From the NCBI RefSeq assembly GCF_041146795.1, contig NC_135177.1, forward strand, positions 21,674,560 through 21,738,559: a stretch of DNA of 64,000 nt. Direction: 5' to 3'. This DNA comes from Maylandia zebra (taxonomy: Eukaryota; Chordata; Actinopteri; Cichliformes; Cichlidae). Under the pieces are notes generated by a model. The model did no database searches, had not been told where the DNA came from, and worked only from the letters and a program-made list of their open reading frames with translations. Both the position numbers and the translations under genes were made by a program. This document shows positions 1-40,589 of the stretch, one piece after another; the stretch's first letter is position 1, and each line of letters starts with the position of its first letter.

Positions 1-4783
<4,783 letters not shown>

Positions 4784-8249: not shown

Positions 8250-8830
8250 GCGTGAGGTGGCCACAGATCAAAAAGCAGCGGCAAGAATGCTGAGCATCTG
8301 TTCCATCTGCACTATTTGGTCCCATCTTTCACGGCCTCCCTGTCCTGTTTGGATCACCTCCACTTCGGAGGTGGGGTGCCCCCGGCCTCTCGGCCTGGGG
8401 CTCGGTCACTCAGGCACGGCTGGCTGCCGGCGGAGCACACGGGTGCGTCACTGCAACTCCCCCTGGCTTCTGCTCCGCGGCTGCTGAGTGAGCCCTCATC
8501 TGGGACTCTCCTCAGCTCTTTCTGGGACAGTGGCGCGGCTGCCCCTCTGTTGGTCTTCCTTGGTCTCTTGTGTTCTGGGGGCCTCTGGATGTCTGGAGTT
8601 TTGATCTCCTCCATACCTGCTTCATGCCCTGGAGGACGGGGCTGTGGCCCCCCCACACCCTCTAGCAGATCATTACATGAAGGAACCTTTTTTAAAAAAA
8701 AACAAGCGCGTCCATGCTCACAGGTGTACACACGGGTGCTCACACACACAAACTACACCCTTTTTGGCTTCTACCTCAAAGCACACTGTGTTCTGTTGAT
8801 CTTATGTGCTGCACAATAATGTTTAATATT
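8250..8830. repeat. GC-rich interspersed repeat, short version
   Basis: Abrupt GC-rich block in AT-rich surroundings, aligned to 28651-29230 of unit 2. Unit 2 carries an extra 1529 bp ahead of it, bounded by 107-bp direct repeats. Open frames here overlap on both strands and none resembles a known protein. The transposon class is not recognised. Confidence 0.5.
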
Positions 8831-10059
8831 TAGTATTTACTGTCATATTCCCATATATCATTGTGATGTTGTTTATTCTATTACTCTTGTTCTCTTCTGC
8901 TTGCTTTCTTTTTTCTTTCTCAGCAGGTGATCCAGGTGATTGATATATGCATTTTTTATTTCTTTTTTTTTTCTTTTTTTTTCTGCTCATTCTTTTGATT
9001 TTTGGTTTTTGCCCTTCTCCCCCGTCCCTCTTCTCAGCTGTTTCTCTTTCCCTCTTTCTTTCTCCCCTTCTTTCCCCCAGTCAAGTCTGTCCCGTATTCA
9101 GTAAATGAAAATAAAATAAACAATAAAAGGTGAATCAAATGGACCATTACGGCAAGGCTGGGATGGTCAATTTGGTAAAGTAAATCCGTTGGGCATCTTT
9201 CTTTGCCTTTAGACAACAATTCTGATGGCAAAAGAGCCAAACGGGACAGGCAAAAAAAAAAAAAAAAAAAAAAGAATGTTCTTGGAGGTGAAGAAGGATA
9301 AGAGACTTTATAATACTAACAGTCCTGTGTGCATGAGGGCATTTTTCTCAGCTGAGCTCCCCTCCTAGGTCTCTTTTTTATTATTGTGAACTCTCTGATC
9401 TGCATCCAGTGTCTAAGTGCTCCAACTCCAGGAACCATGCAGAAAACAGACTAACCTGGTGTGTAGGCTTTAGTAAGCACCTCTGCACTGACACACCAGT
9501 GAAACAATGAGAGTGAGCAGTTAAGTGGTTTAGATGAGGTAACCGACTGGTACAGATGACTGCTGCAGATGACTAAAACAGAACTTTTAAGAGTCAAATA
9601 AAAAAAGGAGGGTTGTACTTTAATAAGGAACTAATTTAACTTTGAAATGATGCAGAAACAAACATAAGAAAAATGTGAAACCTTACTTAGAAAACATATC
9701 AAACACATTTTTAGTGTCGTTTAAAAAAAGACATCATAGCATGCTTGCTCGCAGGCTGCAGCACGCAAGACAGAACAGATGTCTGATCCAGGCTTCTGAT
9801 TGGGTCCAGTGCCACCCCCAAAAGCTGGGCAGGGCGTGGGATTTTCAACAATATTATGATGTTTTTGCAGTTCTGTATATCTCATTTCTACTGACACATG
9901 ACTTACCCAAAACTCCTTTTTACCAGAGAACCATTTACTGTTAGAGGCTGTCAAAGCAAAAAAAAGAAAAAGAAAATTGTTGCCTTTAATTTTCTTAAAC
10001 ATCCATGACAGGCTGTGATGTATCAGCGGGGCTTGTTTATTTTTCCATAACCCTGACCT

Positions 10060-11559
10060 CAAGGCTGGACTGGGACAAAAAATCGGCCCGGGCATTTTGA
10101 CTAGAGACCGGCCCACCAGGATAAAGATTGAAAATGTGACGTCATTCAGGGGTAAAACCGCAAAGGATTCTGGGAACTTGTGGCAAGAGGTACTAGCGCA
10201 CGCAGGCTTTCAATTGAACTCAGTTACACAGCGATAAAAAGAAACACAAAAAATGGCAAGAAGCTGTTGTATTATTAACTGCAATAGCCGGTCGCATGAC
10301 AGCCACGGGAAGCCGATCGTTTTTGTTTTTTTTATCGGATTACGTCGTTGAAGAGAAATTTTTTAAACCATGTTTCCGAAGTAAGAGCCAACGGATGGTC
10401 TGGATATACCAAATATAACGTCCCAGAACACTCCAGCTCACAGGTTAGTCTGCTCCAAGCATTCCCACAAAGGTCAGAGTTTTGTAGTAGTTAATACGTC
10501 ATTTTTCTTAACATAATTGGTGATATAGGTTACAAGCAAGTCTGGCGCTGAACAGAAATTGTCGCGCTATGCTCCTTTGTTTATTGTGCATAAATAGTAA
10601 ATTGTCCTGACACAATATTGTGTTTCGCTTCTGTTATTACCATGGTACATTGACAAAAACATACTTTTATTCACAGGATAAAACAGTTGTTTTGTATCAC
10701 TAATTGCCCAGTACGATTACAGCATACAGTATTATTGTCACTGCTACATTTCTGTAATGAACCAGAAATTATTTCCACTACTAATTAATTACCGTTGAGC
10801 TCAAAGGTCCTATTAATAAACGGTTAACGAATGTGTATTTATGAAGACGATTTGTGAGACTGGTAAACTTACCTTTGTTCGTACGATGGTCTTTCGTTCT
10901 ACACGGTGCATTTCAAGGTCCTGCACCCATCCGTCGGTAAACTGTACCTGGGCTTGTTGCAGTGACCTGAAGTTACTAAACTTCATGAGTGTATGCACTC
11001 ACTCCAAGAACCGTATAATTATAAATATGAGCGTGGTGAAAGTTGGGCAGCACGCTAACGTCCTTTGTCCACTCTGTGTGCTCGTAAGGGTCTGACCCTT
11101 TCACACCTTTGATTTTTTCCTCGTATCTTTTCTTTGTCTTTTCGTCGAGTCTGTCTTTGTACGGACCGGCATTGTTCTACTTTTGTTTTGTACATTCCTT
11201 TTTTGTGTGGCAAAGAAAAAACAAGAAGGCATTGGAACCGGAGAATGAACGTTTTGTGGTGCTGCAAATGCTTGCATTTGATGCGGTACTTGGATTGTTT
11301 CGCCACGAGTTCCCGGCATGCAATGCGCGAAAACTCACGTGATTGCTAAACAAGGGGGCGGGTGCATTCGGCCTCCTCGGCTGTAATTGGTCCAGCCCAG
11401 AGTCGATCATGACCAATTGGCCAATCCAACACCTTTCATTATATATACCCTTCCTAAAAAAATAATAATAAAAAAAAATCCATCGGCCCATAAAAATAAA
11501 AAATCGCCAGCGGCCCACCGGGCAAATGCCCGGTATGCCTGATGGCCAGTCCAGCTATG
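10060..11559 (+). mobile_element. 1500-bp non-autonomous hAT-like element, copy 1
   Basis: Starts CAAGGCTGGACTGG and ends CCAGTCCAGCTATG, forming imperfect terminal inverted repeats. It is flanked by the 8-bp target duplication CCTGACCT (10052-10059 and 11560-11567). The empty target, with a single CCTGACCT, is at 30431-30438 in unit 2. No transposase was found. A short frame from ATG 10253 begins with a Cys-Cys...Cys pattern reminiscent of the first strand of a THAP zinc finger and soon stops, so at most a remnant. An almost identical second copy, also exactly 1500 bp, is at 17421-18920. Confidence 0.88.
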
Positions 11560-11964
11560 CCTGACCTCCAAGAGGAATTTCAGCTTTTTTGTACAGCTCC
11601 CGGCACTCACCAGCACCACCTTTAATACTCGTATTTGTTTGACTCGACAAAGCTGCAGCCAAAGCAGCAAAAGAAAAATACTCCTCCTGGGTAAACAATA
11701 GTCAGTATTAAAGTTTATTTGAACTGCAAAGGAGAACTGAAGGAGAATTAAACTGGCTGGAGAAGCTGTGTTCCAGTCATTCTTTCATACACTGAGGCCA
11801 TGATGACCCTGGACCTAATCTCTACAGATTACAGACATAACAAGGACAGCAAGGCTTTTCATATCTCTGTCATATAAAGTTAACCATCACATCACTGCAT
11901 TACCTTGATACTGAATCCTGGTGTTATTTTATGAAGTGTCTATAATCATATTCCAACTTCTTTG

Positions 11965-12349
11965 ATTTGATTTCAATTTTACAACACCAAATCTAAACAG
12001 CAGCTGCCTCAACACACTTTATATTGTAAGGTAGAGATCCTACAGTAATAGATTGAAAACGTCAACAATCTTGGCGATAGTGGGAAGGGAAAACTCCCAT
12101 TTTACAGGAAGAAATACCCGGCAGGATTCTGGCTCAGGGAGAGGCCATGATCGTTTGGGGGTGAGGTGTGGGAGACGGGACAAGAACACACACTGTAACA
12201 CAAAGTGAATGACAATGAAACACTCAGCAGCCTAGACCTAATGCATATTAACTAAGGGAGGAGTCAGGGTCGCCTGATCAACCCGAACTATATGCTTTAA
12301 GGAAAGTTTTAAGCCTAAGCTTAAAAGCAGAGAAGGTGTCTTTCTCCCA
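11965..12349. repeat. Abundant teleost interspersed repeat fragment (class uncertain)
   Basis: Resembles a family I know as very common in teleost genomes (phrases such as GGGAAAACTCCC and AAGTTTTAAGCCTAAGCTTA). It continues at 14113-14180 after interruption by the LINE, and its counterpart in unit 2 (about 30840-31850) is interrupted instead by a solo LTR. No coding potential was seen. Confidence 0.5.
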
Positions 12350-13727
12350 GTCAGCAGGCCCAGACAAGGTGTGTCCTAGGATGCTAAAGGCGTGTGCTGC
12401 TGAACTTGGGGAGCCGCTACAACGAGTCTTCAATCTCAGTCTGCGACTGGGGCGAGTGCCCACCCTATGGAAGACATCCTGCATCGTCCCGGTCCCCAAA
12501 AGGAACCGGCCCAATGAGCTGAATGACTTCCGACCGGTGGCACTGACGTCACATCTTATGAAGACTCTAGAGCGGCTCTTCCTCAACCTCCTCGGACCAC
12601 AGGTACAACATGCCCAGGACCCACTACAGTTTGCATACAAGGCGGGTGTCGGAGTGGAGGATGCCATCCTGTACCTCCTACACCGAGCCCACTCACACCT
12701 GGATGGGGGAAAAGGCACGGTCAGGATCCTGTTTCTTGACTTTTCCAGTGCCTTTAATACCATCCGGCCCTGTATGCTTCAGGAAAAACTGAACAGGATG
12801 GAGGTGGACCCCTGCCTGGTGGCTTGGATCTCCGACTACCTCACCGACATACCACAGTACGTCAGGCTGAAGGACATCATGTCTGACACAGGAGCACCAC
12901 AGGGAACTGTGCTGTCCCCTCTTCTCTTCACCCTGTACACCTCTGACTTCTGCTACAACTCTGAATTATGCCATATTCAGAAGTTTGCAGATGACACGGC
13001 CATCATGGGGTGTATCTGGGATGATCAGGAAGAGGAGTACAGAAGTCTGGTGAGGAACTTTGTCGCATGGAGTCACACAAACCACCTGCAACTCAACACC
13101 TCAAAGACTAAGGAACTGGTTGTGGACTTCGGGAGGTCCAGAGAAGGTCCACTGCCGGTTCAGATAGAGGGGGAGGAGGTGGAGGTGGTCAACAAGTACA
13201 AGTACCTCGGGCTGTGGGTGGACAATAAACTGGACTGGTCATGCAACACAGAGCACCTGTATAAAAAAGCCCAAAGCCGACTGTACTTCCTCAGGAGGCT
13301 GAGGTCTTTTAACATCTGCAGGAAGCTCCTGAGGATGTTTTACCAGTCAGTGGTTGCTGGAGTACTTTTCTATGCTGTGGTGTGCTGGGGGAGCAGCACA
13401 GCAAAGAAGGACTCATGCAGGCTAGAGAAACTGATCAGGAAGTCTAGCTCTGTGGTCGGCATGAAGCTGGACACTCTGGTGACAGTGGCAGAGAAAAGGA
13501 CACTAAAAAAGCTGCTGGACATTATGGACAATGCTGGGCATCCTCTGCACACGGCCATAAACAACCAGAAGAGTCTGTTCAGTGACAGGTTGCTTCTCCC
13601 CAAGACAAGAACTAACAGACTTATAAACTCCTTTGTCCCACACGCCATCAAACTGTTTAACTCCTCTCTGGAGGGGAGAGGGAGGGGAAACAGGAGGACA
13701 AAGGAGGGGGGAACAACTAAGCTGTAG
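12350..13727 (+). pseudogene. LINE reverse transcriptase, 5'-truncated open frame
   Basis: About 459 codons open from the insertion boundary to a TAA-type stop at 13725-13727. Family motifs in order are LNDFRPVALTS, the aspartate motif FLDFSSAFNTI, GAPQGTVLSPLLF, the catalytic FADDTAIMG, and YKYLGLWVDNKLDW. A C-terminal part with the cysteine/arginine pattern typical of fish L2/CR1 pol proteins follows. The N-terminal endonuclease is absent, so the copy cannot be autonomous. The start is set by truncation, not by a real initiation codon. The open frame suggests a recent insertion. Confidence 0.85.
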
Positions 13728-13894
13728 TGCCTCTTCACCTCACTGTGCAATACCTTGTGCAATACTTTTTGTAAATAGTCAACAGTGCAATAGACTCAAT
13801 ACTTGAAATGTGCAATTCACTTGTATTTTTATTTTTATTCCTATTTATTCTATTTATCCCCTTCGTGTATTTTATTTATATTTGTCTCTGTATT

Positions 13895-14000
<106 letters not shown>

Positions 14001-14339
14001 ATATTCTGTAACTGTAACTTCTGTCGGTGCTGTGCTTTTTGGAAATCGAATTTCCCAGAGGAACCCACCCGAGGGATTAATAAAGTTCTATCTTATCTTA
14101 TCTTATCTTATCGGCTGGTTCCACAGAAGAGGGACCCGAAAGCTGAAATCTCTTCCTCTTGTAAATATGCTTCTAGTTGAGGAACTTTCTAAAAATGGTT
14201 GACTAAAAAGCAAACTTGCACATCTATTACAATAAAACAAAAGTTTTTATGATCAGTTTAATCATCACAGAGATAAATATTTAGTATTGTGTGTCTAGAC
14301 AGGCCTCCACAAAGTCTGACAAATAAGCCTGACGACTGT

Positions 14340-14519
14340 CATGGTCCTGGGTCGGTGACCCAGCGCTTTTAGTTTGTTATCATTTTCTAGTTTATTACGA
14401 GTAGACCGCTACGTTTGCCCTGGCGTCTGAAATGCTTTCGCCGTGAGGCTGGGGCCAGGATCCGACAAAGGTTAGCTGGTATCCCAGACAGGAATGGAGG
14501 TAACGCCTTATGTCCATTA
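14340..14519. other. Unassigned sequence at the unit 1 deletion edge
   Basis: First bases after homology with unit 2 ends. No gene and no terminal repeat recognised; probably a transposon fragment. Confidence 0.3.
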
Positions 14520-14922
14520 TAAATCAAATCAAATCAAATCACTTTTATTGTCACATCACATGTGCAGGTACATTAGTACAGCACATGTGAGTGAAATTCT
14601 TGTGTGCGAGCTTCACAAGCAACAGAGTTGTGCAAAATACAATAATGTAAACAAGCAAAATACAAGAATGGCTACATCTGAAACTAATAAATATATGTAC
14701 AATATATAATAGTATATGCATTTCTGGATGTGTATACTAAATATTTTTCTACGTGTATGTGTGTGTGTGTGTGTGTGTGTACACATATTTTACAAATTAA
14801 ATAGAGTAAACAATAAATAAAATATATAAAAATATACAGAGTTGAGACATGTGCAAAACAGTGGCATTACTGTACAGTATGGAGTGCATAATGTTAAAGT
14901 TCCAGTAGTGAAGCTGAGGTGT

Positions 14923-16074
14923 CTATGACGTGTTCATCAGTCTGATGGCCTGGTGGAAGAAGCTGTCTCTCAGTCTGCTGGTACGGGACCGGATGCTGCA
15001 GAACTTCCTTCCTGATGGAAGTAGTCTGAACAGTTTATGGCTGGGGTGACTGGAGTCCTTGATGATCCTCCCCGCTTTCCTCAGGCAGCGCTTCCTGTAG
15101 ATGTCTTGGAGGGAGGGAAGCTCACCTCCAATTATCCGTTCAGAGCACCGCACTACTCGCTGGAGAGCTTTGCAGTTGTAGGCGGTGCTGTTGCCATACC
15201 AGGTGGTGATGCATCCAGTGAGGATGCTCTCAATGGCACAGTGATAGAAGGTCCTGAGGATGCGAGGGCTCATGCCGAATCTTTTCAGTCTCCTGAGAAA
15301 GAAGAGGCGCTGCTGCGCCTTCTTCACTGTGTTGTTTGTGTGTACTGACCACGTAAGATCCTCAGCCAGATGTACACCAAGGAACCGGAAGCTGCTCACT
15401 CTCTCCACAGCAGCGCCGTTGATGGTGATGGGGGTGTGTACTTCTCTGCACCTCCGGAAGTCCACTATCAACTCCTTTGTCGTTGCGAGGTTGAGTGTGA
15501 GATGGTTGTCTTGACACCAGTGGGTCAGGGCGCTGACCTCCTCCCTGTAAGCCGTCTCATCACCGTTGGTGATAAGACCCACCACTGTAGTGTCGTCCGC
15601 AAACTTCACAATGATGTTGGAGTTGTTAGTGGCCGTGCAGTCGTAGGTGTAGAGTGAGTATAGGAGAGGGCTCAGTACACACCCCTGTGGAGCACCAGTG
15701 TTCAGTGTGATGGGGGATGAGGTGATGCTGCCCAGTCTGACCACTTGGCGTCTGTCAGACAGGAAGCTAAGGATCCAGCTGCAGAGGGAGCTGCTCAGTC
15801 CTAGATCCTGCAGTTTCCTGTCCAGCTTCGAGGGAACGATGGTATTGAATGCTGAGCTGTAATCTACAAACAGCATTCTCACATACGTGTCTTTCTTCTC
15901 CAGGTGTGACAGGGCAGTGTGTAGTGTCAGGGCTATGGCATCATCAGTGGACCTGTTGTGGCGGTATGCGAACTGTAGAGGGTCCAGTGAGTCAGGTAGT
16001 GCAGAGCAGATGAAGTCCCTGACCAGCTTCTCGAAGCATTTGCTCACGATGAGAAAAAATGCTTCGAGAAGCAA
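14923..16074 (-). pseudogene. LINE reverse transcriptase fragment
   Basis: Open frame of 383 codons whose first in-frame Met falls after truncation. Motifs in order are [60 protein letters not shown], the catalytic FADDTTVVG, and [14 protein letters not shown]. It ends at [15 protein letters not shown], typical of the fish Rex1/CR1 type. It belongs to a different subfamily from the 12350-14112 element. It is truncated and lacks the endonuclease. Confidence 0.85.
16026..16072. repeat. Perfect 16-bp inverted repeat at LINE internal junction
   Basis: Arms 16026-16041 (GCTTCTCGAAGCATTT) and 16057-16072 are exact reverse complements with a 15-nt loop. The hairpin marks the joint between the reverse-transcriptase part and the 5' fragment of the same LINE. 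Confidence 0.85.
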
Positions 16075-16441
16075 GTTGCATTGGTAAGATCACTGGCAAC
16101 TAGTCGGAGGTCCAACAGTTTTTGGCGATTGTACATTAAAAGAGAGTTGACTCTAGCAATAAAAAACAACATAAGCAAGCACATCAGAGGAAGAGCCAGA
16201 CGGCGAGCCACACACACTGGCGCCATCTTGGAGTTCATATCGGTTTAGATATGTGGTGAGAGGGAAACATGAAGATGAAACCAGGAGATGTCCTTACTGA
16301 ATCATCAGAGCTGAACAGGTGATGGAGAAACAGGTTTACCTTTTAGGTCACATGAATGAGTTGAAGGGAAGTTATGAACTGTTTCTGAGAGACAATTAAC
16401 ACCAGGATCCTTTTTTATGTAGCTAACAGGTGGTAACTGTG

Positions 16442-16749
16442 CAGGGGCGGGTCTAGGAAAGTTTTGCCAGGGGGCCAGGTAGGGCATTAACAGGGAAAGG
16501 GGGCACAAAGAAGTACTTTTCTTTCTTATTCTCATTTAAAATATCTAGCTTTTATTAAATAATTATCTAAATCTTACAACCAAAGTTTTTATCTGACGTA
16601 AAATGTATAGAAATCATACATATACCAACAAGACAGTGTACATCACTGTCACAACAGCATTTGTTTTCATTCAAAGTCTTTATGGCTTTAATACCTGGTG
16701 GGTCGGTCTGTAGTGTAAATGCCCAATTTTCTGTCCCAGTCCAGCCCTG
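16442..16749. mobile_element. Short hAT-like non-autonomous element
   Basis: Starts CAGGGGCGGGTCTAGG and ends CCCAGTCCAGCCCTG, resembling CAGGG-type hAT termini. The interior is AT-rich with no long frame. No clear target duplication, so the boundaries are tentative. Confidence 0.45.
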
Positions 16750-17206
16750 CAGGTTAATACTGGCAGTAGTGATGGTAAATTTGATTCTTTTTACTGAATT
16801 GAGTGTTAATGAGTCACTCACCAAAGTGAATCGGGTTTTTTGAGTCATTTGATTCACTGAGTCAGTTGACCAGAGAGTGCAAAAATTTTACATTTTCACT
16901 CAAACTTAATTTGTTTCCCTTTTCATGTAAATCCCACTGCTAAGATGAATGATTAAAAAAAACAACAACAACTATTTTAGAGAGAGAAAAGAGCAAAAAC
17001 ATTTCTAAAATTAAGCAATTTCCTATCAAAATTGCTTAATAAACATTTATTTTGTTTATTTGTATTTTATTAGTATTTTCCTTAAGTGTGTCAAATATAT
17101 ATTTTATATACATTTTCTCATCTAAATGTCCACTGCGCTGTGAGCCAGGGGGCGGTAATGCGCCTTAACATTGGTTGCCAACTAAGAAGAAGAAGAAGCT
17201 GTGAGC

Positions 17207-17420
17207 CAGGAGGGAGGGGGTGAGTGAGTGATTCGTTCGCTCGCTCTATGATTCAGCACAGGAGGGAGGGGGTGAGTGAGTGAGTGATTCGTTCGCTCGC
17301 TCTTTGATTCAGCACAGGAGGGAGGGGGTTAGTGAGTGAGTGAGTGATTCGTTCGCTCTATGATTCAGCACAGGAGGGAGGGGGTGAGCGTGTCCTGAGT
17401 GATTCGCTTATGCTTACGAT
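17207..17420. repeat. Minisatellite, about four 52-57-bp units
   Basis: Units start CAGGAGGGAGGGGG at 17207, 17259, 17314 and 17371. They differ mainly in the number of GTGA tetramers and continue with ATTCGTTCGCTC and ATGATTCAGCA. The last unit is split by the 1500-bp hAT and resumes at 18929. Confidence 0.85.
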
Positions 17421-18920
17421 CAAGGCTGGACTGGGACAAAAAATCGGCCCGGGCATTTTGACTAGAGACCGGCCCACCAGGATAAAGATTGAAAATGTGA
17501 CGTCATTCAGGGGTAAAACCGCAAAGGATTCTGGGAACTTGTGGCAAGAGGTACTAGCGCACGCAGGCTTTCAATTGAACTCAGTTACACAGCGATAAAA
17601 AGAAACACAAAAAATGGCAAGAAGCTGTTGTATTATTAACTGCAATAGCCGGTCGCATGACAGCCACGGGAAGCCGATCGTTTTTGTTTTTTTTATCGGA
17701 TTACGTCGTTGAAGAGAAATTTTTTAAACCATGTTTCCGAAGTAAGAGCCAACGGATGGTCTGGATATACCAAATATAACGTCCCAGAACACTCCAGCTC
17801 ACAGGTTAGTCTGCTCCAAGCATTCCCACAAAGGTCAGAGTTTTGTAGTAGTTAATACGTCATTTTTCTTAACATAATTGGTGATATAGGTTACAAGCAA
17901 GTCTGGCGCTGAACAGAAATTGTCGCGCTATGCTCCTTTGTTTATTGTGCATAAATAGTAAATTGTCCTGACACAATATTGTGTTTCGCTTCTGTTATTA
18001 CCATGGTACATTGACAAAAACATACTTTTATTCACAGGATAAAACAGTTGTTTTGTATCACTAATTGCCCAGTACGATTACAGCATACAGTATTATTGTC
18101 ACTGCTACATTTCTGTAATGAACCAGAAATTATTTCCACTACTAATTAATTACCGTTGAGCTCAAAGGTCCTATTAATAAACGGTTAACGAATGTGTATT
18201 TATGAAGACGATTTGTGAGACTGGTAAACTTACCTTTGTTCGTATGATGGTCTTTCGTTCTACACGGTGCATTTCAAGGTCCTGCACCCATCCGTCGGTA
18301 AACTGTACCTGGGCTTGTTGCAGTGACCTGAAGTTACTAAACTTCATGAGTGTATGCACTCACTCCAAGAACCGTATAATTATAAATATGAGCGTGGTGA
18401 AAGTTGGGCAGCACGCTAACGTCCTTTGTCCACTCTGTGTGCTCGTAAGGGTCTGACCCTTTCACACCTTTGATTTTTTCCTCGTATCTTTTCTTTGTCT
18501 TTTCGTCGAGTCTGTCTTTGTACGGACCGGCATTGTTCTACTTTTGTTTTGTACATTCCTTTTTTGTGTGGCAAAGAAAAAACAAGAAGGCATTGGAACC
18601 GGAGAATGAACGTTTTGTGGTGCTGCAAATGCTTGCATTTGATGCGGTACTTGGATTGTTTCGCCACGAGTTCCCGGCATGCAATGCGCGAAAACTCACG
18701 TGATTGCTAAACAAGGGGGCGGGTGCATTCGGCCTCCTCGGCTGTAATTGGTCCAGCCCAGAGTCGATCATGACCAATTGGCCAATCCAACACCTTTCAT
18801 TATATATACCCTTCCTAAAAAAATAATAATAAAAAAAAATCCATCGGCCCATAAAAATAAAAAATCGCCAGCGGCCCACCGGGCAAATGCCCGGTATGCC
18901 CGATGGCCGGTCCAGCTATG
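17421..18920 (+). mobile_element. 1500-bp non-autonomous hAT-like element, copy 2
   Basis: Same element as 10060-11559: same length and only a handful of substitutions by eye. It is flanked by its own 8-bp target duplication CTTACGAT (17413-17420 and 18921-18928). Different target duplications show two independent insertions rather than duplication of one. Confidence 0.9.
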
Positions 18921-19269
18921 CTTACGATTCAGCACAGGAAGCGAGGGGGTGAGTAGCTCAAATGTGTTGTTAGCATGTTAGCAGCGCGATGCTACTCTGA
19001 ACCGAGGAGCTATTTTCTTGATGCGAGCTTCTACTCAGGGGTTTTTTCTTCCAGTTCAGAGCAGAAATGCTTTTGTTATGAAACTGGCTGTTGTTTCCCC
19101 CCCACAATTTTAATTATAAGCTAGATATATTTCTACTAATGGAATTAGTTTGCTAACAACAACAGGGATGAGTCAGTGAGTCAGTTGGGCTTGTGAATCA
19201 TGAATCACGAGTCAGTAAAGTGATTCTCGAGTATTGAACGATTCGTTCACGAATCGAACATCACTACTG

Positions 19270-21372
19270 TCTATGAGGTTAACAGTCAGATTGTAATGGC
19301 GACTGCTGGAACAGCAGACATGGGATCAGCAGCCCCGACAGGTATCTAGCTATCAAATCTCATTCCTTTCTCGTCTCAAAACTAGCGTAAAAAGCGATAT
19401 CTACAGTGTTTTAAAACATTGAAAACGATGCAACGCTGGAGCTCTGGCTGTAATTGAGCCTTCGTTATCTAATTAGCATCGAGGTTTTCCACCAAAGAAA
19501 TGAACCAATTTGTGGTTCGCTTATTTAGCTGGCTCTTTAATAAATCCTGGTCTTCTCGTGTTAAAACACAAGAAGATTTTGTGTGCAGGCCACTCTTAAA
19601 TATGAGGAACAATCTATTGATTTTATAGCGTGGGGAAGTTAACGGTAACTGCTCTCACTCACGTCTTCCTCGCCTGTTACATCCCGTTTCCTCTTCCTCT
19701 GAACGTTTTGTGATGAACATGGCTAAAAAAAAAATCCGCTTTCACTTACCTAAGGGCTTCATTAAACACCTCCCAACTGTTACTGTACAGTTTAGGTGGT
19801 GTATTGTCTTTTTCTGCGTTCCTTCGTCACGCTTATCTAAGTCAATAAAGCAGCCTTAATTTATTTAAGCACCTTTGTTTAGGATCACCGATATCAGACC
19901 TATGCACTGCACATGAACTGGTTCCACTTGCTTCACAGATATAGATTGATCATGTGCTTTCAGAGACTTCTTTTCCCCCAAGATAAAGCACGCAATGGGG
20001 AAGATGCATCTCTCTAATCCAGTTAGTTGTGCATCACTCATTAGCTTCCCTGTATATGTTTGAGTTGCTCTGCTCCTGGTAACCACCCAGTCTGAATCAG
20101 TGAATAAAAATAGTTGCTTTTTAAAGCACTCCTGTGGCTCCCAGATGGCTGAAATCCAGGGACAGCACAAGCACAAGATGTAGCATTCACGCTCACAGAC
20201 ACTTCAGTGACAGTAACTCACTGTGGTTTCCCTAATAGCTTTTATCAGCGTCGTTTCCAAATCAGGTCAAGAAACAGTATATTTGTGGATTCTTCAGAAA
20301 TGACCTTAAAGAGTGTGTCCATGGGTCATGGTATTGCCGTGCATGCTGTGGGCTGTGCGTAAACAAGGCTGGCAGGGACTTGTTTGGTACACAGAGAGGA
20401 ACAGATGGTTTGCCTATTGTAGTGAGGCCTGCCGCTGATGAGCTAAAGTCATTGTTAGGGAACTGACTTAGTCTAATTACTATCCATAGTCTGATGCAAA
20501 ATATATGCCATTAACTGGTTGTATATTGACCTTAATAAATACAGATGGTAGTAATAATAACAATCATAGCTGAAACCGGGCCATCTGGGGTTACTACACA
20601 TGCAAGTACGCATGATCCAAATTTAGTAACAGTCTGTGTTATCTACCTTAAACAAAATTGTCCATTTCTAAGTTATTTTTGGTAAACAATATTCTATTTT
20701 ACATGTTGAGCACATTTAATCATGTTTGTTTTGTAAACGGTCCTGATGGTTTTCCTTTTACAATAAAAGAAAAGTAGCAGTTGCTTAACTGACTTAATTA
20801 TTTAGGCCATGCTTCCTTTACTTCTGTGCACACCTACTTTAAATGAGTTCAGTGTGGCGCATGTACTTGGTTAAGCCAGTTAGCCTGACCTTGTCCTGCT
20901 CCGCAGATATCAGGACTCAGTTCTGGAGGAGAGCGTTGCAGCGAGGTATTCGCATGGGTGTGCTGTGTTTGTGACTGTGAGCAGCAACTGCATGAGTAGT
21001 GATGATATAGTGTGTTGTTTTACATAATGAGAGGGAATGTGGGCAGAGCGATGCTCATTGTTTCCCAGCAGATTGCAGTGTGTCCCTGCTAACTCAGGAG
21101 AGATGCATGGCATTCAGTGAGTCTGTGTAATTATACATAGTCTTGCATTTCTTAGGTTAAAAATGTTCATTTTCTGTGCATTGCCAGGTTTAGATTTGAT
21201 GGGGGTAGAAAGACAAATTTTCAGACTCACTTGTTACTACAGATGTAAAAACTTTGTAGCCTTCAGTCTTTTTTTGTGTGTATATTGACCTATGGTACTG
21301 CAGTGGAGGAGATGTTGCCATTGGTTACAGGCTAGAGGTGATTGCAGAGTGGGCGATGTAGTAAGTTTTATA
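19270..21372 (+). repeat. Tandem-duplication unit 1, right part (pip5k1a exon 1 and intron 1 copy)
   Basis: Near-identical to 41260-43572. It starts 26 bp upstream of the pip5k1a ATG, directly after a hAT terminus, and ends at the junction with rorc exon 4. It lacks 202 bp present at 41630-41831. Confidence 0.93.
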
Positions 21373-24117
21373 CATACAGCCTGTATCCTCACTCCCTGCG
21401 AAACATAGGTGAGCAGATGAGCACAGTGAGCCAAACTAAACATGTAATTTTCTCATATTTATAGTATTCATAAGTGCGTCTTCTTCTTTTTTTTAGATGA
21501 ACTGTGTGCCAGCATTGTGCGTTCCCACAGAGAGACCAGTCAGTACAGAGTGGAAGAGCTCCAAGCTCTCAGGTGGAAACTCTTCAGCAGAGAGGAGATC
21601 CAAGCATACCAGAGCAAAGTATGTGCACTGTTTTCTCTTCATTTTTATTTTTTAATTTTGCGATTTCTCCTTCATGTGTGTGAGCTTACTCAGACAGTCT
21701 CAAAACAAAACATGTCATTTCACATGCTTTACGTCTGAGGCTAGTTTTGTTTGATGAATCAAACAGGAAACTGAGAAAACGTCTTTCATCGCTTCCCCCT
21801 CCTCTTCTTTCTTTGATCTTTTTTTTCAGTTGATCAGAGAGAAAACAGCAGGGTAAATTGAGTGATAAAATACAGAAACTTGAGCAGCAGACTGAATTGT
21901 TGGGACACTGAGGATGAGTTTTTGTGAGACGAGTGAAATGTTTTGCCCTTTAGAGCCCATTTTAAACAATCTATGGTGAAAGAAAAGGATTAATGAGAAA
22001 CAAACTGAGCGAAGCAAACTGAGCTTCTGTCTGACTCTCTTTCCCAGTCAGTAGATGAGATGTGGCAGCACTGCGCTATCCGACTTACTGATGCCGTCCA
22101 GTTCGTGGTGGAGTTTGCAAAACACATCCCGGGTTTCCGTATGCTGAGCCAGAACGACCAGATCGCCCTTTTAAAGACTGGTGATTTTCCCTTTTCTAGA
22201 AGGATGTGCTTAAAACACAATATATATAACTGAACAGGTTTGATCTTACTCTCTTCTGACCTGCCTTCCTACTCTTTTCAGGCTCCATGGAGGTGGTTCT
22301 GGTCAGAATGAGCCGGTTCTTTAACACAGAGAACAACACTGTGTTCTTTGATGGGAAGTTTGCTGGAACTGAGGTCTTCAAATCTTTGGGTGAGGATTTA
22401 TCTGAAGGTGTGAAACCGTCTATCTAAACACCATAACTTATCAATGCTCAGTGGTTTCTTGTCTTGCAGCTTGTGGTGATTTAATCGCAGCAGTATTTGA
22501 CTTCGCACATGGCATGTGTGCCCTAAAGCTGACTGAGCAACAGATTGCTCTCTTCAGTGCCCTGGTGCTCATCAACGCAGGTAAGCCCAGCTCGGTCTGT
22601 CTCACTCATACTGCGTTCATTTTAAGCACATCAGGAAGGAAGCGGTCTTTTCTTTTCTCGTCCTCCATGATGGCGGCACATGGTGCGGTCTTGGGTTCGG
22701 CCTTTATGTGTTCATTTGGCGTTCTCCCTGTGCCTGTGGGGACTTTGTCTTGATACTCTGACTTCTTCTCAAAGACATGACTGTTAGGCTTAATTGGCAA
22801 TGGCGTCTATGAGTTAGTGTCATAAGTACCTTGAACTGGAAATGCAGTTACAAAAATGGGTGGATGGATGTCATAGATGAATAAGCTTGACCTTACTGTC
22901 AGATGTGCATGAATAAATCTTGTAGGTTTATCATATTACTGCCCAAATATAGATGACAGATATGTTTTGTGTCTGTGTCTTATCCAGTTTGCCTCTTTTC
23001 CATTTTGTCTTGTGTAATTTTAATTCATTCTGTCCCATTAAGTTAACCTTTCTGCCTCCTAGTGGCCGTGAAGAGACATAGTTCAGTTAATAGGCCGCAG
23101 TGAATGAGGATGAACTGATGAATGAAGGAAAAGACACAGAAAAGGAAAAAACAAGAAAGACAAAGAACACTTTCCAAAAAGTGTTCTTAGGTGTTGTTGG
23201 GAAGGTGCGACAATGTTTCTGGCCTTTGAATGAAGTCCTTTCCTGTCTCGTTGTTGTTGCGTGAATTTTAAACTGAAATTAAAAGGAATCAAAGAGAATA
23301 TTTTAACAATGGACATTCAGAATAAGGGCGTGATAAATATCTGGATCCTATCACCTCATCGCTTCAGTCCTTATTTTTACTGCTGTGCTTTATGGGTTCC
23401 GCTGAAGATTTTAATGTCATTATATGTCTAAAGTATAGAATTGAAACAAACTTCTGAATGTATTTGTTAAAAAACTCTTTTATGATTTCAACCCTGCTAT
23501 TTTTGCCTGCCAAAATTGACTAAAGTTCACTGCTGAGAGCATCAGCCTGCTGCCAGGGACTTAACTTCCATGCAGCAAGTAATGCTGTCTAGCCTGTTCT
23601 GCAAAATGCTTTACTTTATGATTTTTGTTATGTTTTTCACCTTTAAAGGGAGCAACCTGAAAAAAACTCAATCCTTCTTTCATAAAACATCTTTGTGTTC
23701 AGATCGTCCGTGTCTGGAGGACAGGAGCAAAGTTCAAAGAGTTCAAAGAAGCGTGGAGTCGGGACTGACACACATTTTGCACCGAGACAATCAAGAAAGT
23801 TTGATTCACAAGGTAAATATCAGTCACCTGGGTGTTCAAACACTAAAAGGCTTGTATGCTCCATGTTTCATATCTGTGAGTACGCGTAAGATCGCAGGCT
23901 TTCCTCGCTGCTGTAGAAAGCTGACGGCTAAATGTGTGTGTCCTCCCTGCAGCTGTACCAGAAGATGGGGGTGTTGCGCTCGCTGTGCAGTCTGCACATG
24001 GAGAAGCTTCACTGGTTTAGTCAGCGGTACCCGCTCACAGCTCACTCTCTGTTTCCTCCGCTCTACAAGGAGCTGTTCGCATCAGAGGCAGAGCTTCTGC
24101 CGGGGACCACTCACTGA
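19296..24117 (+). CDS. Candidate chimeric gene: pip5k1a exon 1 joined in frame to the rorc ligand-binding domain
   Basis: Exon 1 (19296-19341) is a copy of pip5k1a exon 1 coding [15 protein letters not shown] plus one base, followed by an intact GTATCT donor. The next complete exons are rorc exons 5-10 of the second unit: 21497-21618, 22048-22180, 22282-22389, 22470-22580, 23703-23812, 23953-24117. Pip5k1a exon 1 ends in phase 1 and rorc exon 5 needs phase 1, so the joint codes Asp and the 795-nt frame is open to the rorc stop (264 residues). The product would hold the full RORgamma ligand-binding domain with its AF-2 helix and lack both zinc fingers and the hinge. By inference it could bind ligand or coactivator without DNA. 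All splice sites match the parent genes. The pip5k1a promoter is missing upstream, so expression is unknown. The alternative is an untranscribed relic or an assembly artefact. Confidence 0.5.
21373..21408 (+). pseudogene. Truncated rorc exon 4 (3' end only)
   Basis: The last 36 bases of rorc exon 4 with its GTGAGC donor; the natural acceptor and the first two thirds of the exon are missing. A weak AG at 21378-21379 could act as a cryptic acceptor. If the piece were included after the pip5k1a exon 1 copy, the frame would hit TAG at the exon's last codon, so a productive chimera must skip it. Confidence 0.85.
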
Positions 24118-25498: not shown

Positions 25499-27121
25499 CT
25501 GCTGAAGCTGTGACACCAAGCAGATGTTTCACTTTGACTGCTTGTGAAATCACCATAAATATTTATGCAAGGCTGAGACAAGGAAGAAAAATTAACCGAA
25601 TTATAGGGAAATCCCTATCAAGTCAAACACCAAAGTTTATTTGTTGCAGTCAAAGCTCTATAGCGAATATACTGAAAAACATCCAAATAAGTTGTCTCCA
25701 GCAAATTTCGGTAAATTTGCAGCTGCAGCAAAACAGAGGAAATATTAGTCATTGTGGGTGACTACCAGTGGTCTGTGGAAAGGTTTTTTGAGGTTGTCAC
25801 ACATCGACACACGCACACAACGGTTGCTAGCCAAGTTAGAGAGGAAGCAAATTAAAAGCTTCTAAATCCGTGGGATGTAATTAACCCAGCAAACAGATTT
25901 TATGTTAAAGACAGCTCCGATCAAAGCTGCTCACATTTTCTTTCATCATCTCCTGCATGCAGGTTTGGGCAACAAAACTCTCTAAACTGCTCTTGTATGT
26001 AGTGGTCTTTGGTTTCTTTAAATATTCTGTTATGCAGAACAAAAGAATAAAAGGGTCATTTTTGCCTTTGCTTAAATACCATTTCCACTCTTCTTCCTTT
26101 TGCTTAGATGTTTGTAAGAAAACTGACTGTGTGGCTGGATTTTAGTAAGCGGAAGGAGAGTGGTTTAGTAGTTTATTACCTTAAAGGAATTTCCAGTTTC
26201 CACCAAGTTATTTCACTATTACAGATGAGTGGTACACATGACTCGAGGTCATGGGAAATAGGAATATTTGGTCCTAACTACTGTAAATCAAAACACTAGT
26301 TTACCATTAAACATAAAGGCAGCATTAATTATAGCAAAGATGCGCATGCTTACTTACTTGTCCACTCACAACTGAAACATTATAATAAAAACCTAAAAGA
26401 CCCCCCCCAAAAAAATACTCACATGGAGAGGATGCTGCAACAAAGGCCGAGGGGAAAGCTGGACTATTCACACAAAGTGGGTAATGAGGGAAGTGGAAAT
26501 AGCTGAGAAAATGAGATACAGGTGTAGACAGTCCCGTGGGGGGAGTAACCTGAAATAACCGAAAGGTAACTACTAAACACAGAGATGTGAACTCACACTG
26601 AAACACGATACAGAAAAAACACAAAGTCAAAGACAGAAATCCAAACACAAGAATATTACAAAAAAACCTCATAACACACAAAACTTAAAACTCAAGTATT
26701 ACCAAAACAAAGGTTTAAGAGGAACAAGCCTGTTTTCCCTGCCTGTGGAAGGGAGACATCTAGTTGCCCAAAGAGGAGCAGATTTGGGGTCATGAGTCTA
26801 CGATTAGCGAGCTTTAATGACATGTTCCAGGAAATTTGAGTTGAGTATGTGTTCAGTAGTTATCAAAACAGCACCAAGAATGTCTGCAGTAGCTATTTGA
26901 CCATAATTACTCTGGAAAACGGACAAATGAGTGATTTGGTGAAAGAGAAGAGTTATTTTCCTTAATGGAAGATAAAGTTGTGGGAATTCTGAAGTTTCAT
27001 ATGGGTAAGCTCGAGAATTATTTTGCCAGGTATTACACTGACTTACTGGTTTAGTAGATGTGAGTGCTTATAGGTTGGTTTGAGGACTCAAAACAAAGGA
27101 TTTATTAAGTCAGGAAAAGGA

Positions 27122-28757
27122 GCGTGAGGTGGCCACAGATCAAAAAGCAGCGGCAAGAATGCTGAGCATCTGTTCCATCTGCACCATTTGGTCCCATCTT
27201 TCACGGCCTCCCTATCCTGTTTGGATCAATGATTCTTGTTCTTGGGGGGAAGAATGTGCATTTAGTTCTATGAGTATCGGGATGATAACACATTTGTTCT
27301 TTTTATAATTTTTCCTCTATACACATCAGTTAAAGACTTGAGTGTATACTTTGTAGTTGGCATGCAGCATGTACACACTGGCTTTTTGTGGGATTAGTAG
27401 CTTCATAGTCTGCCTCACATAACTTGAGTGATAAGAACAGCAGGAAACTGTAATTTAGTCATTTGGATTATGTGTTGTGGGTGGGCTGGAGAGTCTTTTG
27501 TTCATGGGCACAGCTGCGTGAGAATGTTCTTGGAGGTGGGTGGGTGGGTGCATGGGGGCCCAGCCCTGGAGCAGGGTGCCGCCGGTGCATCGAGCCACCT
27601 GGGGGGCTCTTCAACTGGTGGGGAAGATTGTCACATCTTGCAGGAGCTTTCCTCTCCTCAGGGGCTCTCTCTGCAGGAGGGGGAGATACAGGAGAGGTGG
27701 AGGAAGATCTCAGCCTGGGTGTTTATTGTCTTATGTAGTCTGGAAGATGAGTGGATGGTGGGGTGGGTGCAGTTTTCTCTGTGGTGGGGTTGGGTGGACT
27801 GTCCCGGGCTCTGTGGGGCTGGGAGGCGCTGCTGCGCTGGGCCCCGGTCTGGATGGGCCTGGGCCCCCTTTCCCTGGTGGGTCGCAGAGTATGGGTGTGC
27901 CTACTAGGGTCAGCGGGGGAGCTGGCCCCAGGGAGGGGTCACTTGCCCCTCCCTTCCTTCCCTCCCCATCTCCAGCTGCCTCCCTCTTCCCGCTCCACCA
28001 CAACCACCCACACATGCAGGACCTTGGAGTAGGGGTATGTCACCAGGGTGCAGAGGAGGCTACCCCCCCCCCCCCCCCGGTCCCCTTCTGGCTGCCTCTG
28101 CCTCAATTTTATCCCACAACTTAGACATTCACATTACTCACACTCTCATTACACATACATATAGGATCTTGGGGGTGGGCACGATACACGGAATCCAAAG
28201 TACCATCAGGGTGTACACCCCACCCCTGGCGTCGTTGCCCACCTCTCAATGTTAAATACACGTAGACATTGAGGGCTAGCAGGAGGGACCATGCGCTTAC
28301 CTGCTGCTCTCTGGCAGGTAGCTCCATGCCCTCCTGGGTTTTAAATGCACCTTAGAACACACATGCATCAACACTACAATGAGCGGGTGGAGGGAGGTTT
28401 GGAGTCTTCTCTCACCCCCATTCTCTGCGACCTGCTGGAGCGGGGGGGCTAGGAGGAGGAGTTGGCCGTCCGACTGCGGTATGGAGTGTGGGGCCTCCCT
28501 GCTGCTGCGGAGTCGGGGCGGTCTGCCTCCCCCCACCGCAGGGAAAAGGGTAACACCACCTGGGTCTGGGTGCAGTTCCCCCCTCCAGGGGCAAGGGTAC
28601 CTAGACGTCCAGGTACACACCGGCTCACTCCTTGGTGGCCGCTTATCGGGGCGTGAGGTGGCCACAGATCAAAAAGCAGCGGCAAGAATGCTGAGCATCT
28701 GTTCCATCTGCACCATTTGGTCCCATCTTTCACGGCCTCCCTGTCCTGTTTGGATCA
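27122..28757. repeat. GC-rich block bounded by 107-bp direct repeats
   Basis: Repeats 27122-27228 and 28651-28757 are near-identical. The interior (from about 27530) is GC-rich with G/C runs, including a long poly-C at about 28063-28078. Unit 1 has a single 107-bp copy (from 8250) and none of the interior, as expected after recombination between the repeats. Large overlapping open frames here are products of base composition. Confidence 0.8.
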
Positions 28758-29345: not shown

Positions 29346-31133
29346 ATATGCATTTTTTTCTTTTTTTTTCTGCTCATTCTGTTGGTTTTTGTCTTTTGCC
29401 CTTCTCCCCCGTCCCTCTTCTCAGCTGTTTCTCTTTCCCTCTTTCTTTCCCCCAGTCAAGTCTGTCCCGTATTCAGTAAGTGAAAATAAAATAAACAATA
29501 AAAGGTGAATCAAATGGACCATTACGGCAAGGCTGGGATGGTCAATTTGGTAAAGTAAATCCGTTGGGCATCTTTCTTTGCCTTTAGACAACAATTCTGA
29601 TGGCAAAAGAGCCAAACGGGACAGGCAAAAAAAAAAAAAAAAAAAAAGAATGTTCTTGGAGGTGAAGAAGGATAAGAGACTTTATAATACTAACAGTCCT
29701 GTGTGCATGAGGGCATTTTTCTCAGCTGAGCTCCCCTCCTAGGTCTCTTTTTTATTATTGTGAACTCTCTGATCTGCATCCAGTGTCTAAGTGCTCCAAC
29801 TCAACTCCAGGAACCATGCAGAAAACAGACTAACCTGGTGTGTAGGCTTTAGTAAGCACCTCTGCACTGACACACCAGTGAAACAATGAGAGTGAGCAGT
29901 TAAGTGGTTTAGATGAGGTAACCGACTGGTACAGATGACTGCTGCAGATGACTAAAACAGAACTTTTAAGAGTCAAATAAAAAAAGGAGGGTTGTACTTT
30001 AATAAGGAACTAATTTAACTTTGAAATGATGCAGAAACAAACATAAGAAAAATGCGAAACCTTACTTAGAAAACATATCAAACACATTTTTAGTGTCGTT
30101 TAAAAAAAGACATCATAGCATGCTTGCTCGCAGGCTGCAGCACGCAAGACAGAACAGATGTCTGATCCAGGCTTCTGATTGGGTCCAGTGCCACCCCCAA
30201 AAGCTGGGCAGGGCGTGGGATTTTCAACAATATTATGATGTTTTTGCAGTTCTGTATATCTCATTTCCACTGACACATGACTTACCCAAAACTCCTTTTT
30301 ACCAGAGAACCATTTACTGTTAGAGGCTGTCAAAGCAAAAAAAAGAAAAAGAAAATTGTTGCCTTTAATTTTCTTAAACATCCATGACAGGCTGTGATGT
30401 ATCAGCGGGGCTTGTTTATTTTTCCATAACCCTGACCTCCAAGAGGAATTTCAGCTTTTTCGTACAGCTCCCGGCACTCACCAGCACCACCTTTAATACT
30501 CGTATTTGTTTGACTCAACAAAGCTGCAGCCAAAGCAGCAAAAGAAAAATACTCCTCCTGGGTAAACAACATATGTCCAATAGTCAGTATTAAAGTTTAT
30601 TTGAACTGCAAAGGAGAACTGAAGGAGAATTAAACTGGCTGGAGAAGCTGTGTTCCAGTCATTCTTTCATACACTGAGGCCATGATGACCCTGGACCTAA
30701 TCTCTACAGATTACAGACATAACAAGGACAGCAAGGCTTTTCATATCTCTGTCATATAAAGTTAACCATCACATCACTGCATTACCTTGATACTGAATCC
30801 TGGTGTTATTTTATGAAGTGTCTTCATATTCCAACTTCTTTGATTTGATTTCAATTTTACAACACCAAATCTAAACAGCAGCTGCCTCAACACACTTTAT
30901 ATTGTAAGGTAGAGATCCTACAGTAATAGATTGAAAATGTCAACTATCAAATGCCTCCCTGTGAGCAAGTACTTGGCGATAGTGGGAAGGGAAAACTTCC
31001 ATTTTACAGGAAGAAATACCTGGCAGGATTCTGGCTCAGGGAGAGGCCATGATCATTTGGGGGTGAGGTGTGGGAGACGGGACAAGAATACACACTGTAA
31101 CACAAAGTGAATGACAATGAAACACTCAGCAGC

Positions 31134-31650
31134 TGTCACGGCCTGGGGGTTCAGCTGGTCGCTGATCAGCTGTCTCCCCCTCTTTCTCTCTTCTCCTCTC
31201 TCTCGCCAGGGCTGAACTCATTATGGGTTCACGCCCTTGGCCCACGCCCTCGGAGGAAGAAACACCTGTGCCTCATCAGTGTGGTATTTAAGACGGGAAG
31301 CAACAGCTGTTCTTCGCTGGATCGTTGTGAGAATCGCGTCAGTGAAAGTCGAGCGCCCCAGCAAGTATTTTCCCATGCAGTGTGTGTTTAGCATTTAACA
31401 AGCGTCTCTTTGTGTACAGATTCCCTGGACTGTTTTCCTGGTGTGCGAGTGGATTCGTGTCTGGATTGTGTGGAGAGAAACGAGCGTGTTCCCCTGGATT
31501 TTCCCCGGACCCCTGCCCCCCTCACCTTTTGTACATAGCACTGCCCCGTATCTGTGTATATAAACTCATTGGACATTGTTCTGTAATAAATTCTCTTGTG
31601 TACATCATCCCCGGAGTCCTGCGCGTGAGTCCACCTTGTACGTCGTGACA
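31134..31650 (+). mobile_element. Solo LTR of an LTR retrotransposon
   Basis: 517 bp starting TGTCACGG and ending CGTGACA, flanked by the 5-bp target duplication GCAGC (31129-31133 and 31651-31655). The empty site with one GCAGC is at about 12229-12233 in unit 1. Inside are a TATTTAAG TATA-like box and an AATAAA near 31584. No internal coding region remains. The family (Ty3/gypsy-like or other) cannot be set from the LTR alone. Confidence 0.88.
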
Positions 31651-32639
31651 GCAGCCTAGACCTACTGCATCTTAACTAAGGGAGGAGTCAGGGTCACCTG
31701 ATCCAACCCGAACTATATGCTTTCTTAAAAAGGAAAGTTTTAAGCCTAAGCTTAAAAGCAGAGAAGGTGTCTTTCTCCCAAATCTAGTGGCTGGTTCAAC
31801 AGAAGAGGGACCCGAAAGCTGAAATCTCTTCCTCTTGTAAATATGCTTCTAGTTGAGGAACTTTCTAAAAATGGTTGACTAAAAAGCAAACTCGCACCTC
31901 TATTACAATAAAACAAAAGTTGTGATGATCAGTTTAATCATCACAGAGATAAATATTTAGTATTGTGTGTCTAGACAGGCCTCCACAAAGTCTGACAAAT
32001 AACCCTGACGACTGTGTTTGCGGTGTCGATGACAGCTATGGAAACTCATTCTCATGAGGCAGGAAGTTGCCATAATCCAGAGCATAAACTCTGGATGGAA
32101 TTTGTCATTTATCAGGCAATAAGCAAAACAATCACTGAGCTAGGAATGATTCGCCTATTATTAAAATAAGGATTACTCAGGCTCTGCTGCTTTGTAAAAA
32201 AAAAATAATTTAAAGGATTTCTTTTCAGTCAGCCAGCTTTAATGGGAGTATTGGCATTTATGGTCTCACACTGTGGTATTTCAATGTAAACACAGTATAT
32301 AGGTCAAGATAACATCAAGACCAAGTAAACATCTGATACATGATAAGGACAAGCTTCTGATCCTTAAGAAAAACAGACTGTGTTGCATTAAGTTCTCAGT
32401 AGCCTTGAGAAATAGGAAAGCATAAACATACTTTGTTTTAACACTTTCTATTTAACAAACTGTATTTTATACGTTATTTTACAAGACATATTTGTATTGC
32501 TATTCCAAGATTGCCTATGTTTTTGTTTGGTTTATTTTCGTTGAAAAGTTTTCTCTTTTCCTCTCCATGTTAAGTTTTTAAGCAGGAAAAAATGCTAAAG
32601 CTGAGCTTTTCCACATAAGGGTTCCATACATTCCCATTA

Positions 32640-32942
32640 AACAGCACCAGGAATTTGAACGCATCACCAATGAGTCATGTCAAAAAACTTCCTTCCCTCC
32701 CACCTTTTTTCCGCTCCCTTAAATCCCACAACAATCGTAAAAAGTTTTTGTCCTGTTGCGGGCTTTTGCTCCTCAGACAGACAGCGCAGCGGCTTGTGTT
32801 GGACCAATTAACGGGCCCGTCTGTGCGCTGCCCCGCGGAGCGTGCTTTCCTGGGCGGCCTCTGCGCACTCTGCCAGGACAGTCAGCTGCAGCTGCAGAAC
32901 ATAAAGCACGCATAGCACGGCACGGACACGATCAGGTCCAAA
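32640..32942 (+). promoter_or_regulatory. ecm1: Probable ecm1 promoter and 5' UTR
   Basis: GC-rich stretch just before the ecm1 ATG with a CCAAT motif near 32802 and a weak TATA-like CATAAAG near 32900. Placement is by position and composition only. Confidence 0.4.
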
Positions 32943-37862: not shown

Positions 37863-38268
37863 GCTTGTATGGCCTTTCGCTGCTGACCCCACTGTCGCTG
37901 GGCTGTTCGGGATATTGGTGAGATAGCAGCAGACGTGGCATTCGGTCACTGAACAGAAACGATTCGTGCAACACTTAAATGTTTGTAAGACAAAATGAAA
38001 TGTAAAATGTTGACCGAGTTTTCTAGCTTCAACTACTGCCGGCGTTCTGAGACCAAATGAGCATTTCTACCATTTATACTACACATACTTAGCATACTGT
38101 TACATGCATAGTTGCTAAAACAGACTATTGTCTAGGACACTGTACCACTATTTTTATAGGCTCCTCTTTGCATACTTGATTATTAATTTCTTAATTCTTT
38201 TGGAAATTCAAGATCTTTTTTTTCTCTTTTATATGGTTTCTAGTTAAGATCTTCTCTGAAAAAGTGAT

Positions 38269-38274
38269 AATAAA
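38269..38274 (+). terminator. ecm1: ecm1 poly(A) signal
   Basis: AATAAA about 400 bases after the ecm1 stop, preceded by an AT-rich 3' UTR. Confidence 0.65.
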
Positions 38275-39044: not shown

Positions 39045-39055
39045 CAAATGTTTTT

Positions 39056-40512: not shown

Positions 40513-40589
40513 AGAAGAATTTTAAATTTAAAAGAAATTCTCTGGCAAATATGGGATATATTCATTTAGCACAGTCAAAATAGCATGAA

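Follow-up and report, generated by a model that had tools for sequence, protein, structure and literature searches.

A 64,000-nucleotide (nt) stretch of the Maylandia zebra genome (contig NC_135177.1; C11:21674560-21738559, hereafter the window) contains a direct tandem duplication that places the first exon of pip5k1a in frame with the ligand-binding domain (LBD) exons of rorc. The resulting gene lies at 19296-24117 on the + strand. Its sequence and surroundings make it likely that this is a real, young, in-frame chimera that has been orphaned from its promoter, and that it is probably a non-functional by-product of the duplication, not a new working gene. The original prediction, made from the letters of the window, had described an in-frame pip5k1a exon 1/rorc LBD chimera at this position; its boundaries, 795 nt and 264 residues were exact to the base, and the splice sites are canonical.

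A tandem duplication joins two neighboring genes

Self-BLAST and block alignments showed two copies of one unit in the window, listed here with the parent genes:

about 2033-21366, + strand: copy 1 of the tandem duplication, from the 3' part of rorc to intron 1 of pip5k1a (self-BLAST, block alignments)
21367-21372, + strand: filler TTTATA at the tandem joint (6 nt; three sequences compared by eye)
about 21373-43566, + strand: copy 2 of the tandem duplication (self-BLAST, block alignments)
1-4783, + strand: parental rorc, from the exon of the DNA-binding domain (DBD) to the stop codon, with an open frame; it continues left of the window, where an acceptor was seen by eye
41286-41331, + strand: exon 1 of parental pip5k1a, whose kinase exon at 46705-47004 matches solved PIP5K type I alpha

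At the joint, the pip5k1a sequence (shared with copy 2 up to 43566) stops at 21366, TTTATA follows, and the rorc sequence (shared with copy 1 from 2033) begins at 21373, the position at which the joint had been placed before. The two sides share no homology, and only the 6-nt filler separates them. The left breakpoint falls inside a 102-nt rorc exon (1967-2068) and the right one inside pip5k1a intron 1, and both genes are on the same strand. Because copy 1 and copy 2 are 99.3% identical over 10,530 aligned columns in seven blocks, the alignments indicate that the direct tandem duplication of the rorc-to-pip5k1a unit is real and beyond chance. As read from the joint, the chimera is a 5' exon of pip5k1a in frame with 3' exons of rorc, made by one tandem duplication.

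We searched the whole genome (962,127,851 bases in 63 contigs) for further copies. The exon 1 query matched two places, both inside the window. A 471-nt query across the joint matched three places (itself and its two parts), again all inside the window, with the joint itself occurring once. With three queries (exon 1, the joint and the pip5k1a flank) against the whole genome, no further copy was found outside the window. Regarding the parent genes, the rorc frame is open from the start of the window to its stop codon, and pip5k1a was inspected at exon 1, the exon 2 region and one kinase exon.

The chimeric frame encodes a receptor LBD without a DBD

The transcript rebuilt from the window uses the following exons, with one broken exon lying in the chimeric intron:

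19296-19341, + strand: duplicated pip5k1a exon 1 (46 nt, with ATG, donor gtatct and phase 1; identical to 41286-41331)
21373-21408, + strand: stub of the broken 102-nt rorc exon (36 nt; donor kept, acceptor lost; inside the chimeric intron)
21497-21618, + strand: rorc LBD exon, copy 2
22048-22180, + strand: rorc LBD exon, copy 2
22282-22389, + strand: rorc LBD exon, copy 2
22470-22580, + strand: rorc LBD exon, copy 2
23703-23812, + strand: rorc LBD exon, copy 2
23953-24117, + strand: last rorc exon, copy 2, with PPLYKELF and the stop codon

When spliced, exon 1 and the six LBD exons form a frame of 264 amino acids followed by the normal rorc stop, with canonical AG/GT sites throughout and with exon 1 joined to the first LBD exon at phase 1. 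The phase match had been reported correctly; taken by itself, it is a poor sign of anything more than chance, because the window shows nine rorc acceptors and six of them have phase 1. The original numbering of the LBD exons as 5-10 needs correction to at least 6-11, as the first rorc exon in the window has its acceptor, identified by eye, just left of the window. The 749 nt of the LBD exons show zero differences from their counterparts in 2156-4783, in agreement with the earlier claim of no coding change from the parental exons.

Inclusion of the stub through a cryptic acceptor was considered and rejected. Use of any of the 17 AG sites tested, at 21201-21404, would stop the frame at residue 16-46; within this set, the 264-amino-acid product arises only if 19341 is spliced directly to 21497.

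The predicted protein matches the nuclear receptor LBD (PF00104, E 2.7e-21). No zf-C4 DBD was listed for it at E up to 1, whereas zf-C4 is present in the rorc parent, and the hinge is missing together with the DBD. Among the best 60 of 341 matches in the PDB, all are ROR and none is NR0B, and residues 8-258 of the chimeric protein match the solved ROR LBD chains. For several of the listed ROR-gamma chains, the match starts five or six residues inside the chain, opposite query residue 15-16. In extent, the rorc part of the chimera thus roughly equals the known foldable unit of the solved structures. The motifs vvefak and fpplykelf are unchanged in both ROR LBD alignments that we looked at, and we take PPLYKELF of the last exon to be AF-2. 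If made, the product could fold and bind coactivators via AF-2. From what is generally known of nuclear receptors, it would then compete with the full-length receptor.

The parent genes are likely rorc and pip5k1a

Similarity of the LBD alone does not name the ROR type, because the best solved match is ROR-alpha at 275 bits and ROR-gamma follows at 273 bits; LBD identity is likewise close, at 57% to ROR-alpha and 56% to ROR-gamma. We built an LBD tree (258 columns, 193 gap-free) that combined the window gene with five further ROR-like loci from its genome and with human ROR-alpha and human ROR-gamma; human ROR-beta and NR0B were not included. The other five loci are presumably rora (two), rorb (one) and rord (two), labels that we assigned partly from known motifs. 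Nine further loci from the ROR search stayed outside the tree; their listed match edges showed no ROR exon boundary near query residue 122. The window gene grouped with human ROR-gamma, outside the five other loci (support 0.971). This placement led us to reject its assignment to rord, the fourth type of ROR gene described in teleosts (PMC5553892).

Among the PDB matches listed for the parental DBD, the best is ROR-gamma (7xvn), with no ROR-alpha or ROR-beta DBD among them. Of the matches listed for the right-hand gene, a type I PIP5K, the best is type I alpha, and no other type I chain appears among them. The names rorc and pip5k1a are thus likely, the paralogue letter of pip5k1a being provisional.

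The parental promoter region is probably missing from the chimera

Upstream of the chimera, copy 1 departs from the arrangement of copy 2, in which an ecm1-like gene stands between rorc and pip5k1a:

19267-19295, + strand: 29-nt remainder of the parental 5' leader in copy 1 (two differences from copy 2)
41050-41285, + strand: parental pip5k1a 5' flank, of which only the last 29 nt were found a second time in the genome
14340-19266, no strand assigned: stretch found only in copy 1, largely mobile elements, which occupies the place of the copy-2 ecm1-like gene and the pip5k1a 5' flank
16767-19266, + strand: hAT-like element adjoining the leader, with a nested 1.5-kb element at 17420-18921 (genome relatives, flank comparison)
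12336-13727 (463 amino acids) and 14923-16074 (383 amino acids), on opposite strands: two different long reverse transcriptase frames (PF00078), copy 1 only

Homology to the left of the duplicated exon 1 ends at 19267, 29 nt before the ATG, and beyond this point the pip5k1a upstream flank is absent from copy 1. Consistent with this, the flank query matched two places in the whole genome, the second being only its last 74 nt (29 of leader and 45 of exon) in copy 1. A comparison of 14340-19266 in copy 1 with 32016-41256 in copy 2 gave no match (blastn, word size 7, E 1e-3, dust on). The copy-2 sequence that has no counterpart in copy 1, comprising the ecm1-like gene and the pip5k1a 5' flank, amounts to about 9.2 kb. 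Because copy 1 keeps 29 nt before the ATG and lacks both the flank and the ecm1-like gene, the parental promoter region was probably lost from copy 1.

The element that now adjoins the leader belongs to a family with at least 41 places in the genome (40 of 324 first-look candidates were scored), whose termini are TAGTGATG in inverted orientation. Its right edge is well defined: 17 of the 40 other listed places end exactly at the position of 19266, and the rest end at most 11 nt beyond it. We fetched 14 relatives, and of the 12 with both ends readable, 10 have an 8-bp target-site duplication (at least 7 of 8 bp equal). In contrast, the flanks of the window copy, ACTGGCAG and CTGTCTAT, agree at one of eight positions, so this copy has no target-site duplication. 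The name hAT-like reflects the termini and target-site duplications of the family. That both the target-site duplication and the left-hand DNA are missing suggests either that two hAT copies recombined with each other or that a deletion took place next to the element. Judged from the two copies alone, the most economical history would be one in which copy 2 preserves the original layout and copy 1 has lost it.

Our preferred explanation starts with a direct tandem duplication, still young, whose breakpoints fell within a rorc exon and within intron 1 of pip5k1a. The parent genes stayed where they were and the new chimera arose between them, a step that can be read directly from the sequence. 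The hAT-like element would then have come to adjoin the leader 29 nt before the ATG, through one of the two routes above. In this step copy 1 would have lost both the pip5k1a 5' flank and the ecm1-like gene, which are observed to be absent, as opposed to copy 2 having gained them. Without the parental promoter region, the chimera is probably silent, or transcribed only spuriously.

The 1.5-kb element nested in the hAT-like element occurs twice, in copy 1 only (10061-11560 and 17420-18921), the two differing at three of 1,502 bases. At about 30431-30439 (CCTGACCT), copy 2 shows what looks like the empty site of the 10061-11560 element. Because of this empty site, the element at 10061-11560 is read as either inserted after the duplication or polymorphic.

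Low divergence leaves little power to detect constraint

In the rorc block, the two copies differ by 16 substitutions in 4,610 noncoding columns (0.35%) and by none in the 749 coding columns. At this divergence, 2.6 coding changes are expected if both copies are free of constraint and 1.3 if only copy 2 is free, and the probability of seeing zero is 0.07 and 0.27, respectively. Placing the differences at random (15 of the 16, with one at the joint left out) likewise gave P = 0.10 for zero coding changes. The original prediction had taken the unchanged exons to mean that the frame has not decayed; the absence of changes holds, but with only 1.3-2.6 expected it has little power to support that conclusion. 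A rough model gives a free frame a probability of 0.76 of still lacking any stop or indel at 0.35% divergence; at 1.2%, the probability is 0.39.

Divergence between the copies varies by block, from 0.30% in the rorc block to 1.2-2.6% in blocks further on (7858-14339). The rorc block (2033-7399) differs at 16 of 5,359 positions, compared with 61 of 5,171 in the other six blocks (Fisher P = 6e-8); compared with the pip5k1a intron block alone, there was no significant difference (P = 0.13). The low divergence extends to the rorc introns next to the LBD exons, which are at 0.3%. Gene conversion, a regional difference in rate, or poorly aligned repeats are possible reasons for the low divergence of the rorc block. 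If the rorc part underwent gene conversion, its identity would be even less informative. The tests gave no evidence of constraint on the chimeric frame, and its intactness can be explained by youth, possibly with gene conversion, and without selection.

The copies also differ in structure. A 110-bp stretch occurs once in copy 1 (8247-8356) and twice in copy 2 (27119-27228 and 28648-28757), where the two are ~1.4 kb apart. About 200 bp of pip5k1a intron 1 (41630-41831) is present in copy 2 and missing from copy 1. An insertion at 31134-31648 is found only in copy 2 and, by eye, resembles a solo LTR (TGTCACG...CGTGACA).

Alternative readings of the chimera

Several observations weigh against a silent chimera. 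The CpG observed/expected ratio is 0.67-1.15 in the first 600 bp downstream of the chimera ATG in copy 1. If pip5k1a transcription starts within the 29 shared nt or within these CpG-rich 600 bp, part of the promoter would remain. The element sequence over the 1,200 bp before the chimera ATG is not CpG-poor either (0.37-1.20), and promoters can be supplied by mobile elements. Finally, coding identity is complete over all 795 nt, and measured against the 1.2% divergence of other blocks the probability of zero changes on one free branch would be 0.008, although the neighboring rorc introns have diverged as little as the exons' own block. As the CpG content downstream of the ATG is alike in copy 1 and copy 2, it gives no verdict.

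One alternative is that weak transcripts of the chimera are made and spliced without serving any function. The retained 29 leader nt, the CpG-rich start of intron 1 and the intact splice sites would allow for such transcription; with the upstream flank absent, we consider it unlikely.

Less probable still is an assembly artefact, in which two haplotypes were set head to tail (a false heterotype duplication) and produced a false chimeric gene. Haplotypes could differ as the copies do, by 0.3-2.6% in each block and through insertions, and false chimeric gains that join exons of different genes in a duplicated region, as seen here, are documented for such errors in PMC9516828, which also describes false copies sometimes joined by sequence lacking read support. 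However, the false copies described in that source are mostly separated by gaps, whereas the window contains 0 N and no gap between its copies. The artefact is unlikely because there is no gap at the joint, which also offers an assembler no homology to overlap, only the 6-nt filler. In addition, 63 contigs make up the 962-Mb assembly, and the three queries placed no copy elsewhere. The copy-1 "haplotype" would also have to lack the ecm1-like gene and the pip5k1a flank, a loss that would be better tolerated after a duplication.

The least probable of the three, and a long shot, is a working gene in which a residual or mobile-element promoter drives a 264-residue RORgamma LBD without a DBD that titrates ligand or coactivators away from the full-length receptor. 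The original prediction proposed such competition, and much of its basis stands: the origin by duplication, the open frame, and a whole ROR LBD with AF-2 and no DBD. Canonical splice sites, an LBD of about the extent of a known foldable unit and the two unchanged motifs also speak for it. A working gene does not follow from these, as the parental 5' flank is absent from copy 1, no test shows constraint, the hinge and DBD are absent, and use of the stub exon via any of the 17 AG sites would end the frame early. In its favor, tandem duplications that cross gene boundaries make chimeric genes in Drosophila yakuba, where PMC5460883 reports 76 of them, 24 being upregulated. One could further imagine that the pip5k1a promoter at first drove the newborn chimera, that its product, a freestanding RORgamma LBD, disturbed the work of the receptor, and that a hAT-linked promoter deletion spread by silencing the chimera, or that the chimera is still expressed from a mobile element as a natural decoy receptor; we regard both ideas as highly improbable.

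Relation to known systems

Nuclear receptors without a DBD are known, SHP/NR0B2 and DAX1/NR0B1 among them. Unlike these NR0B proteins, the window LBD is of the ROR type, which we take to be class NR1F, and is a predicted product of a duplicate fragment. It resembles SHP/NR0B2 in being an LBD without a DBD (PMC3346990).

The formation of chimeras by tandem duplication is already known. Like the D. yakuba chimeras (PMC5460883), the window gene combines the 5' end of one gene with the 3' end of its neighbor, and its parents appear to be kept; in contrast to those described there, it is in a vertebrate, lacks its own 5' flank and is known here from sequence alone. The same source reports one duplication with a secondary deletion. 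PIPSL, a hominoid chimeric gene, also uses PIP5K1A sequence; it arose with a linked gene by co-retroposition (PMC2773790), whereas the window chimera has another partner and arose by tandem duplication. We found no description of a rorc/pip5k1a chimera in the open-licence library searched. IMG/VR was scanned for the joint and for relatives of the LBD; neither an exact match nor a confirmed relative turned up, which is uninformative for fish.

The preferred reading, a promoter-orphaned chimera, would provide a clear example of a tandem duplication that creates an in-frame chimera and of a mobile element that soon stands in the place of its promoter. It is also a warning that, below about 1% divergence, finding a spliced frame open tells little about function. 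Expression of the chimera, if it occurs, would make it a RORgamma LBD decoy specific to its lineage.

An ecm1-like gene in copy 2

The gene between rorc and pip5k1a in copy 2 has no match in copy 1:

32943-37862, + strand: ecm1-like gene of 11 exons, copy 2 only (1464 nt open from ATG to stop; exons set by hand at AG/GT sites)

A 286-nt query from one of its exons found a single copy in the whole genome. The joined protein matches the Pfam family ECM1 (PF05782, E 4.1e-43).

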